From contig NZ_JAQGLG010000077.1 of the NCBI RefSeq assembly GCF_028292965.1, positions 1 to 64,000 of the forward strand: DNA of 64,000 nt, given 5' to 3'. Position 1 is the first letter of the stretch, and the number at the start of each line of letters is the position of its first letter. Below, piece by piece: positions 1,460 through 24,549 of the stretch. The notes beneath the pieces were generated by a model that had not been told where the DNA came from, ran no database searches, and worked only from the letters and a program-made list of their open reading frames with translations. The position numbers and the translations under genes were made by a program. Source of the stretch: Sphingomonas bacterium (GTDB lineage: Bacteria > Pseudomonadota > Alphaproteobacteria > Sphingomonadales > Sphingomonadaceae).

Positions 1460-3979
1460 TCAGTAAATGCCGCCCTGCCGTTGCAGGAAGTCGCTGTCCT
1501 TCGCGCCGTCCTTCTTCGCGGTGGGCGCGACGGCCTTGGGTGCCGCGGTCGCCGGAAGGTCTGTGCGCTGGGCGGCGCGGCGTGGCTCGCTCTCCGGCTT
1601 GAACGCTTCCCAGATCACCGAGGCGAGCGGGTCGTCGGACGGCCAGGCGCCGAACACCGGCTTGCCCGAGGCGCGGTCGATGCGCACCATGCGGATGCCC
1701 TCCGGCGCGCGGAACGGGATCTTCTCCATCCCCTCATAGGCCTTGAGCGCGAACTCCTTGAAGATCGGCGCGGCGAGCGTGCCGCCCTGCGCGTAACCGC
1801 CGAGCGGCGAGGGCGTGTCGTAACCCATATAGATGCCGCCGATCAGCTGCGGCGTGCCGCCGATGAACCACACATCGGTCGGGCCGCTATTGGTGCCGGT
1901 CTTGCCGAACATCGGGCGGTTGAGATCACGCAGCACGGTCGCGGTACCGCGCTGGATCACGCCTTCGGCGATGTGCACCATCTGATAGGCACTCATCGCA
2001 TCGACCACCTGCTTGCCGCGCGTTACCGGGCGGGGCATCGGCTTGCCGTCATATTGCGCCATGTTGCAGCGCTCGCACGGGCGCCAGTTCTCGGGCCAGA
2101 TGATCTTGCCGCGGCGGTTCTGGACGAAATCGATCAAGCTTGGCGCATGCGCGCGGCCCTGATTGGCGAGGATGGTATAGGCGTTGACCATGCGTGACAC
2201 GGTGGTCTCGCCGGCACCCAGCGCGAAGGCCGGGTAGGGGGGGTATTTGCCGACGCCGATACGGTCCATCAGGCTGACGACATGGTCCATGCCGACGGTG
2301 GTCGCGGCGCGTACCGTCATCAGGTTGCGCGACTGCTCGACACCCCAGCGCATGGTGTGGGGGCCCGAGCCCTGCCCGCCGCCGAAGTTACGGAAGCATT
2401 TCTGGCCGAGCTTGGCGCCCTGATAGAAGCAGAACGGCGCGTCCATGATGATCGTCGCGGGGGTCAGCCCCTGCGAGAGCGCGGCAGCATAGACGATCGG
2501 CTTGATCGTCGAGCCCGGTTGGCGCAGCGCCTGGGTCGCGCGGTTGAACGACTGGGCGGTCGAATCAAACCCGCCCTGCATCGCGAGCACGCGTCCGGTC
2601 TGCGGCTCCTCGACGACGAACGCGCCGGAGATTTTGGGGATGGCGCGCAAGGTGAAGTTGGGCCCTTCGGGCGCGACGGCGATGACATCGCCGACCTTGA
2701 ACGCGTCGAACGCGTTGCCGCCTTGTCCACGGACCGGCATCGTCGCGCCCCATCGCGGCAGGAGCCCGGTCTGGCCGTTGGCGAAGCCCAATGTCGCGGT
2801 CTCGCCGTTCAGCGCGACGATCAGCGCGGCACGCCAGTCCTGATAGTCGAGCGAGATATTGGTGTTGAGCAGCGGCGGCAGCCAGTTGGCGCCGCTGATC
2901 TCGACATGGCGGATCGGCCCGTTCCAGCCGCGCCCCTTGTCGAAGCGGACCAGCCCGTCGCGCAGTGCGGTCTGGGCATATTCCTGCATCTTCGGGTCGA
3001 GCGAGGTGCGTACCCAGAGGCCGCCCGAATAGACGCTGTACGGCCCCGCGCGATCGTCTTCGCCGAACTTGTCGATCAGCTGGCGGCGCACCTCTTCGAC
3101 GAAATAACCACCGCCGGCGATCTCGCTGTGCGGCGTCTGGCGCGGCACGGTGCCGAGCCCTTCCGACACGGCCTGGTCATGCTGCGCCTGATCGATGAAG
3201 CCGTTGGCGAGCATCTCGTCGAGCACATATTTGCGGCGCCCGAGCGCGCGATCCGGATGACGCACCGGATCATAGTTGGACGGGCCCTTGGGCAGGATGG
3301 CGAGATAGGCCAGCTGCGCCAGGTCGAGCTGTTTCAAGTCCTTGCCGAAATAGGCATAGCTCGCCGCCTCGACGCCGAACGCGTTGCGGCCGAGCGCGAT
3401 CTGGTTGAGGTATAGCTCGAGGATCTGCTGCTTGGTCAGCGCATCCTCGATGCGATAGGCGAGCAGCGCCTCACGGATCTTGCGCGTCGGCGAATAGACG
3501 TTGCCGATCAGCAGGTTCTTGGCGACCTGCTGGGTGATGGTCGATCCGCCCTTGGCGCGGCGGCCGGAACCCATCTTGGTGAAATAGTCGATCACCGCGC
3601 CCGCCATGCCGGGGTAATCGACGCCGTGATGCTCGAAGAAGGTCTTGTCTTCAGCCGCCAGGAAGGCGCGCACCAATAGCGGCGGATATTCCTCGTAGGA
3701 CAGTTCGACGCGCCGCTCGCGGGCATAGCTGTGGATCGGCAGGCCATCGACGCCGCGGACGTTGGTCGGCAGCGGCGGCTCATAGCTGCGCAGCTTGTCG
3801 ACGGAAGGGAGATCGCTGGCGAAGATGTACCAGAACACCGCCCAGGCAATGGCGAGCAGCACGCCCAGCACGGCCAGCGCCTTGACCCACCAGCGGCTCC
3901 AGGCCTGCTGGACGAAGCCGGCAAAACCACCGACCTCGCGGCGGATGCGAAAGTTCACGGAGGATGCGGTGTCGTTCAT
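1460..3979 (-). CDS. mrcA: Penicillin-binding protein 1A, bifunctional
   Basis: Class A PBP of 839 residues that polymerises and cross-links peptidoglycan in the periplasm. An N-terminal membrane anchor (about residues 32-54, WVKALAVLGVLLAIAWAVFW) is followed by a GT51 transglycosylase domain with the catalytic Glu in AAEDKTFFEHHG (about 110) and GGSTITQQVAKN. The transpeptidase domain carries all three penicillin-binding motifs: STIK in RQPGSTIKPI, SRN in EQSRNLM and KTG in FGKTGTNSGP. An OB-like insert between the two domains is typical of PBP1A. It precedes prfB. The C-terminus is charged and Ala-rich. Upstream lies the AACAGRG repeat cluster. Confidence 0.96.
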   Translation of the reverse strand: MNDTASSVNFRIRREVGGFAGFVQQAWSRWWVKALAVLGVLLAIAWAVFWYIFASDLPSVDKLRSYEPPLPTNVRGVDGLPIHSYARERRVELSYEEYPPLLVRAFLAAEDKTFFEHHGVDYPGMAGAVIDYFTKMGSGRRAKGGSTITQQVAKNLLIGNVYSPTRKIREALLAYRIEDALTKQQILELYLNQIALGRNAFGVEAASYAYFGKDLKQLDLAQLAYLAILPKGPSNYDPVRHPDRALGRRKYVLDEMLANGFIDQAQHDQAVSEGLGTVPRQTPHSEIAGGGYFVEEVRRQLIDKFGEDDRAGPYSVYSGGLWVRTSLDPKMQEYAQTALRDGLVRFDKGRGWNGPIRHVEISGANWLPPLLNTNISLDYQDWRAALIVALNGETATLGFANGQTGLLPRWGATMPVRGQGGNAFDAFKVGDVIAVAPEGPNFTLRAIPKISGAFVVEEPQTGRVLAMQGGFDSTAQSFNRATQALRQPGSTIKPIVYAAALSQGLTPATIIMDAPFCFYQGAKLGQKCFRNFGGGQGSGPHTMRWGVEQSRNLMTVRAATTVGMDHVVSLMDRIGVGKYPPYPAFALGAGETTVSRMVNAYTILANQGRAHAPSLIDFVQNRRGKIIWPENWRPCERCNMAQYDGKPMPRPVTRGKQVVDAMSAYQMVHIAEGVIQRGTATVLRDLNRPMFGKTGTNSGPTDVWFIGGTPQLIGGIYMGYDTPSPLGGYAQGGTLAAPIFKEFALKAYEGMEKIPFRAPEGIRMVRIDRASGKPVFGAWPSDDPLASVIWEAFKPESEPRRAAQRTDLPATAAPKAVAPTAKKDGAKDSDFLQRQGGIY

Positions 3980-23172: not shown

Positions 23173-23858
23173 ATAAAATTTCTGTCATGCAATGGGGCCG
23201 GCCCGGCCCGACAGAGCGGCGAAAATCTCCCCTGCTCGGGCTGCTTTTTGGGGAATTTACTGTAGGAATTTCAGTGGCCTGCGCCCACACTCCCCTGCTC
23301 GACAAAAGCAGGAGAGAGTTTTGCGGGGGGCAGGGAGCGCGGCCGGCCGGGCAGGGGCGGGCACGGTGGCGGGCAGGCGAAGTCGATTCAACTTGTTCAA
23401 CATATCGGCGATTCACGGGGCGGAATGATCCGGGTGCCACCATGCGCGCCCGGCCAGCGTGGTTGAATCACGCCGGCCGCGCGCGGTGGGGGGGGGGGGG
23501 GGGGCGCGCGCGGCTCGGGCGGTGATGGAGCGGCATGATGAGCGAATGTGAAAAGGCGCGTGAGGAGGCGGAGGCTTATGGCGCCTATATAGGCGAGGCG
23601 ATGGAATAAGCTGAACTGGACGGAGGCGCTGCGCACGCGCGGGCCGTAATTGGACGCGCGGCTTGTTCATCGCGCTGCCGGCACATCGCCGAAATCGCTT
23701 CACGACATCGTCCGGTCGCGATTTCAAGCTAGTTGAGGTGATGCGGTGGGTCGCAGATGTGCCCAGGCAACGAGAACTGTGGTCCTCTACCGTCCGCATC
23801 ACCTATCCGGCTTTGTCGATGTATGTTTGATTTTCCGCAGCTGATATGCCCCGGACCT
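23173..23858. other. Long gene-free stretch with a G17 run
   Basis: About 690 bp with no ORF that looks like a real protein. It contains an uninterrupted run of 17 G at 23488-23504 flanked by GCGCGC, a CCTGCT-CGACAAA-AGCAGG hairpin near 23295, and a 24-codon ORF at 23534-23608 (MMSECEKAREEAEAYG...) with no recognisable relative, perhaps a gene remnant. Confidence 0.6.
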
Positions 23859-23885
23859 CTTGAACCGTCAAAAACCCGAACCTAC
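23859..23885 (+). promoter_or_regulatory. Candidate heat-shock sigma (RpoH) promoter
   Basis: CTTGAA at 23859-23864 followed, 18 nt after CTTG, by CCTAC at 23881-23885, close to the alphaproteobacterial RpoH pattern CTTG-N17/18-CYTAT. It sits about 110 bp upstream of the Hsp20 start, leaving room for the RNA thermometer leader. Confidence 0.55.
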
Positions 23886-23963
23886 CTTTTCGCTCGCCGG
23901 GCGCCATTTTCCGGGTCCGGTGGGACAATGAGAGCGCCGGCTGCATACCCGCGCTTTTCATGC

Positions 23964-23990
23964 CCAGATCGCTTCACATGGAGGATTTGG
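23964..23990 (+). promoter_or_regulatory. ROSE-type RNA thermometer hairpin
   Basis: CCAGATCGCTTCACATGGAG and the following GATTTGG fold so that CCAGATC-(G)-CTTC pairs with GGAGGATTTGG, leaving loop ACAT and one bulged G within TCGCT. This is the UYGCU / Shine-Dalgarno pairing with a bulged G that defines ROSE elements in alphaproteobacterial small heat-shock leaders. The hairpin buries the GGAGG and ends 2 nt before the ATG at 23993. Further stems are possible upstream (about 23893-23945). Confidence 0.85.
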
Positions 23991-23992
23991 AA

Positions 23993-24472
23993 ATGAGAAC
24001 CAATTTCGACTTCACCCCGTACCGCCGTTCCACGGTCGGCTTCGACCGGCTGTTCGACCTGCTCGAAACCAACGCGCGGACCGACGCCGCCGACGGCTAT
24101 CCGCCGTTCGATATCATGCGCGATGGCGAGGACAGCTTCTGCATCACGCTCGCGGTGGCCGGCTTCCGTCCGGACGAGATCGAGGTGGTCGCCCAGCAGA
24201 ACCAGCTCACGGTTACGGGCAAGCGCGCCGACGACCAGGATCGGGGCGAGTATTTGCACCGTGGCATCGCCGCGCGGCCCTTCGAGCGTCGCTTCCAGCT
24301 CGCCGACTTCATCGAGGCGGGGAGCGCCCGGTTCGAAAACGGCCTGCTCAGCATCGAGCTGAAACGGGTCGTTCCGGAGGCCATGAGGCCGCGCAAGATC
24401 GAGATCGGAGGTGGCACTCCCGCCAATGACCGGATCGCGGGGCCGACCGACCAAAGCCGCGAGGCGGCCTGA
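23993..24472 (+). CDS. Small heat-shock protein Hsp20 (IbpA-like)
   Basis: A 159-residue alpha-crystallin chaperone that holds unfolding proteins. The start at MRTNFDFTPYRRSTVGFDRLF is chosen because GAGG lies 8 nt upstream and the N-terminus matches IbpA-type proteins; the ORF track begins 11 codons earlier inside the thermometer. The alpha-crystallin domain (about 37-135) includes YPPFDIMRDGEDSFCITLAVAGF and ends with ARFENGLLSIELKR. The C-terminal tail lacks a canonical IxI motif except possibly KIEIG. Regulated by the RpoH-like promoter and ROSE hairpin upstream. Confidence 0.95.
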   Translation: MRTNFDFTPYRRSTVGFDRLFDLLETNARTDAADGYPPFDIMRDGEDSFCITLAVAGFRPDEIEVVAQQNQLTVTGKRADDQDRGEYLHRGIAARPFERRFQLADFIEAGSARFENGLLSIELKRVVPEAMRPRKIEIGGGTPANDRIAGPTDQSREAA

Positions 24473-24549
24473 CCGGTTCATCGGCGCCGCCCACGGGGGC
24501 GGCGGCCGGTGAGCCACACCAACTCAAGCCAGGAAAGGAGAGATGACCC

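Follow-up and report, generated by a model that had tools for sequence, protein, structure and literature searches.

A ROSE-type leader and putative RNA thermometer upstream of a sphingomonad hsp20 gene

Genes and leader features of the hsp20 locus

We analysed a 64,000-nucleotide stretch of DNA from a Sphingomonas bacterium (the window, always at its full length), which carries two adjacent small heat shock genes, hsp20-A and hsp20-B, preceded by a structured leader and a predicted promoter (Table 1). In 27 fetched loci hsp20-A is likewise followed by hsp20-B; hsp20-B is therefore probably on the same transcript. A very stable GC-rich hairpin that is not followed by a T run lies between the two genes at 24475-24515, and it is perhaps an mRNA-stabilising or processing element. 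Upstream of the promoter there is a run of about 15 G (23489-23504). Elsewhere in the window, the minus strand holds an Rfam suhB/mmgR small RNA (RF00519, 32513-32590, 51 bits against a gathering score of 41) with a T-rich terminator-like hairpin at its end.

Table 1. Features of the hsp20 locus (window coordinates).
Feature	Position	Strand	Basis and remarks
Predicted RpoH (sigma32)-type promoter, RpoH1 type	23859-23887	+	CTTGAA (23859-23864), 16 nt, CCTACCT (23881-23887); -35 6/6 letters, -10 5/7 letters
Complete ROSE element, 5' leader and first codons	23897-23999	+	Rfam RF00435, model positions 1-94 of 94, 45.5 bits
Hairpin I	23897-23920	+	RNAalifold and pair counts; 99.2% of cells paired, 3 of 8 pairs changed on both sides
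Hairpin II	23934-23954	+	RNAalifold; 98.8% of cells paired, 4 of 7 pairs changed on both sides
Hairpin III, whole	23956-23998	+	Lower stem 23956-23961 with 23993-23998 pairs AUG and codon 2; in Rfam consensus structure
Hairpin III, upper stem	23964-23990	+	Fold; anti-SD UCGCU 23969-23973 with bulged G23971, against GGAGG 23980-23984; loop ACAU
Shine-Dalgarno (SD) sequence GGAGG of hsp20-A	23980-23984	+	8 nt 5' of ATG 23993
hsp20-A, small heat shock protein, 159 aa	23993-24472	+	Pfam HSP20 PF00011, 64.1 bits
hsp20-B, second small heat shock protein, 172 aa	24550-25068	+	Pfam HSP20, 81.9 bits

A preliminary description of this DNA had reported a ROSE thermometer at 23964-23990. The segment reads CCAGATCGCTTCACATGGAGGATTTGG; AA and then the ATG (23993) come next, so the 2-nt gap claimed between the hairpin and the start of the hsp20 gene is correct. 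The minimum free energy (MFE) fold reproduced the pairing exactly as it had been drawn (CCAGATC with GATTTGG, a bulged G23971, CTTC with GGAG, loop ACAT); it is (((((((.((((....))))))))))) from 20 to 55 C, with -11.1 kcal/mol at 37 C, and contains one G.U wobble (G23967.U23987) and one U.G wobble (U23974.G23981). The UYGCU/Shine-Dalgarno rule that had been invoked for ROSE elements holds as well, as UCGCU faces 23982-23985 and leaves G23971 unpaired. The location needs amending: there is a hairpin where one was described, but those 27 nt account for just the upper portion of the 3' hairpin of an element of about 100 nt that takes in the start codon and also includes hairpins I and II.

A search with the Rfam ROSE model, which had been proposed as a check, returned RF00435 at 45.5 bits, only 0.5 bits over the gathering score of 45 (E value 0.0013 over the 64 kb and 2e-5 over a 951-base stretch). 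RF00435 is the family of Bradyrhizobium hspA ROSE1 and its relatives. Classical ROSE elements have three to four hairpins, and the leader has three helices with compensatory changes, directly 5' of a small heat shock gene (Pfam HSP20 at 23993). In this genome, hairpin II contains a single mismatch, C23938 opposite C23950. The family match and the pairing are thereby established here. We checked the whole 4.6-Mb genome with the Rfam scan and with a model of our own, R1; the leader match was the sole RF00435 match above the cut-off in the Rfam scan. R1 was built with the window included, and the window's R1 score of 101.7 bits is not independent evidence.

The promoter claimed upstream also holds. 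We scored it against the Sinorhizobium meliloti RpoH1 consensus, CTTGAA-N15-16-CCTATAT (PMC4843759); the Sphingomonadales genomes examined in that study have only rpoH1. The promoter is conserved: all but one of 55 loci (54) have CTTGA at a distance of 100-150 nt on the 5' side of the ATG. Transcription likely starts just 5' of hairpin I.

The second hsp20 had been said to have no such hairpin, and we agree: no ROSE match was found there up to an E value of 5, and GGAAAGGAG is mostly unpaired in the fold. An Rfam search for ROSE before the hsp20-B homologues of 20 scanned loci likewise found none. If hsp20-B is thermo-controlled at translation at all, this probably occurs only via hsp20-A. The genome contains one further hsp20, on another contig, whose leader (L002; G000:C154:22703-22792, minus strand) has a ROSE-like hairpin with UCGCU facing AGGAGGATTTG and scores 28.8 bits, below the cut-off. 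We note that this weaker ROSE-like leader type precedes the MRxDLTPYRRSTIGFDRLFD paralogue in many Sphingomonas genomes.

Conservation of the leader among relatives

We fetched 58 loci via the Hsp20 protein, with the leader not looked at. Among the 20 loci scanned with all of Rfam, 19 had ROSE at or above the gathering score in the same place (the exception was L036), and the best of these relatives scored 69.4 bits. In an alignment of 46 leaders, UYGCU varies only at its Y, every leader has the bulged G, and the SD keeps its GAG throughout. Standard pairs make up 98.3% of cells, against 94.7% after shuffling, and only 31-54% of cells pair when the two sides are offset by one to three columns. 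Changes on both sides affect 9 pairs and 58 cells, which no shuffle reached. Conservation and compensatory change are thus established for the leader. RNAalifold, run unguided, recovered the same hairpins, except that a CUC just 3' of hairpin II goes to the base of hairpin II and not to the lower stem of hairpin III. The lower-stem pairs of hairpin III are retained in most of the 46 leaders, at an alignment end that is somewhat preselected, as one of the peptide patterns used for fetching, MRTNFDFT, overlaps the last six lower-stem bases. The predicted lower-stem pairing probability is about 0.65 in the window and about 0.9 on average in relatives. On these comparative grounds the ROSE leader is well supported, but it is an ordinary member of a known family.

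Several observations concern individual relatives. Records L046, L047, L048 and L049 (hsp20 start at 2501, except for 1541 in L047) carry the labels Rhizorhabdus, Sphingobium, Novosphingobium and Sphingopyxis, yet they look identical in the leader, in the upstream DNA and in the match identities of the hsp20 pair. Such apparent identity across four genera suggests recent transfer. Most of the leader-plus-pair stretch also occurs on plasmids, in 22 records. We considered a mobile stress-tolerance island from the four-genera identity; the flanking ORFs had no Pfam matches. L031 has a sub-threshold ROSE match (1501-1580, minus strand, 33 bits) in which UGUGCU replaces UYGCU, 5' of a short ORF (MAMRTDLDFDALYLSDMNVS...) not resembling hsp20. 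In L037 (Stakelama pacifica), an Rfam terC RNA (RF03067, 65.7 bits) lies at 2218-2277 on the minus strand, opposite to and upstream of the hsp20 pair.

Proposed heat response and competing explanations

The leader of hsp20-A is very probably a ROSE-type RNA thermometer, with heat acting on both transcription and translation; this is the best explanation of the locus. At growth temperature, hairpin III would pair UCGCU with the SD GGAGG and its lower stem would pair the AUG, blocking 30S binding. Heating would open the imperfect stem, which would be weak at the bulged G23971, and 30S could then bind and translation begin. RpoH would transcribe the hsp20-A mRNA from the promoter just upstream, giving heat control at both levels. 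We infer melting in the physiological range, translational control and use of the promoter; on the strength of family membership, both transcription and translation of hsp20-A are probably heat-controlled. Related leaders behave in this way: the ROSE-like leaders of Pseudomonas ibpA, with U(U/C)GCU and a bulged G, are experimentally thermo-responsive (PMC3669281), as is the ROSE-like leader of P. stuartii oppF, in which deletion of the bulged G lowers induction (PMC11342760). By computation, deleting the bulged G in the window would make the hairpin about 3.8 kcal/mol more stable.

A variant of this mechanism, in which heat shifts the CUC strand between two helices instead of simply melting the stem, strikes us as improbable. 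The CUC has two possible partners, a GAG at the hairpin II base and the one within AUGAG (the start and codon 2), and both pairings are kept across the 46 leaders. The predicted probability of the hairpin II extension in the window is 0.02-0.15 from 20 to 48 C, which lends little folding support to a two-state switch.

It is also very unlikely that the hairpin is a constitutive damper, that is, a real repressing structure with no physiological melting, in which case heat induction would come from RpoH transcription alone. Such a damper would fit the stable stem predicted by ViennaRNA, in which the window's SD stays paired up to 55 C, and the stability of hairpin III, -11.1 kcal/mol in the window against a mean of -7.6 kcal/mol in relatives at 37 C; the model accordingly predicts no switching near 42 C. 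A damper would also fit the presence of the RpoH-type promoter and the behaviour of a related hsp20 in Sphingomonas melonis, Hsp17, which upon heat shock rises 1,857-fold in mRNA and only 11-fold in protein (PMC10434288). However, the destabilising bulged G and UYGCU are invariant and a plain damper would not need them, and the ROSE-like elements that have been tested (PMC3669281, PMC11342760) respond to heat. The energy model, moreover, fails on known ROSE melting too. The E. coli ibpA leader is an experimentally proven thermometer. Because it likewise shows no opening in the same ViennaRNA model, the predicted persistence of the window's stem is weak evidence against switching. If the leader is a thermometer, its higher-than-average hairpin III stability may, speculatively, mean a higher switching temperature.

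The probability that the hairpin arose by chance is close to nil. GC-rich DNA commonly has short hairpins near start codons, this genome is GC-rich, and the Rfam score sits at the cut-off; but the match is full-length, with its E value of 2e-5 on 951 bases. Chance origin is refuted by the conservation of the leader in relatives selected by protein (19 of 20 over the cut-off) and by compensatory changes far beyond those of shuffles.

Equally negligible is a coding origin, in which hsp20-A would start at an in-frame ATG within the hairpin region (23960 or 23978) and the hairpin would lie inside the gene: a frame is open from 23960 in phase with hsp20-A, but GGAGG stands 8 nt 5' of 23993, and we rejected the upstream starts as not conserved. 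Loop length between UYGCU and GGAG, mostly 3-7 nt, varies among relatives in single-base steps, which break the frame, and only 13 of 55 loci have any in-frame ATG upstream; therefore it is the RNA that is conserved, and not an N-terminal extension.

Known thermometers and sphingomonad heat shock

The window shares with the ROSE family (RF00435) the full-length structure, the UYGCU anti-SD with its bulged G, an AUG in the lower stem, an hsp20 gene downstream and an RpoH-type promoter. It departs from the family in having four pairs above the bulge and the mismatch in hairpin II. Its Y is a C, which forms a C-G pair next to the bulge; 33 of the 46 leaders have U.G at this place. The hairpin III stem is rather stable because of this C-G pair and the four pairs above the bulge.

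Like the window, the ROSE-like thermometer of E. coli ibpA has UCGCU facing the SD just 5' of an hsp20-family start, but the rest of its leader differs in sequence and its SD is GGAGC. The short ROSE-like leaders of Pseudomonas ibpA (PMC3669281) resemble it in carrying U(U/C)GCU as the anti-SD of their 3' hairpin and in having a sigma32 promoter. They are about 61-62 nt long with two hairpins and an AUG predicted to be unpaired, whereas the window's element has about 100 nt, three hairpins and a paired AUG. The hsp20 ROSE of Gluconobacter oxydans (PMC5756330) is likewise an RF00435 prediction before an alphaproteobacterial hsp20; it differs in belonging to another order and in being a prediction only.

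Our literature search found no paper testing or naming a native ROSE element in sphingomonads. The study of S. melonis Hsp17 does not discuss a thermometer, and the word appears in its reference list only (PMC10434288). The first residues of that protein match the third-hsp20 paralogue type, the cloning primer encoding MRLDLTP (PMC10434288).

By every test that a sequence permits, the leader of hsp20-A is a genuine ROSE RNA thermometer. For sphingomonad hsp20 genes it contributes a ROSE thermometer that is well supported and shows clear compensatory changes, and it leaves the general picture of bacterial heat sensing unchanged. It may help to account for published sphingomonad data on heat shock, where the increase in mRNA greatly exceeds that in protein.
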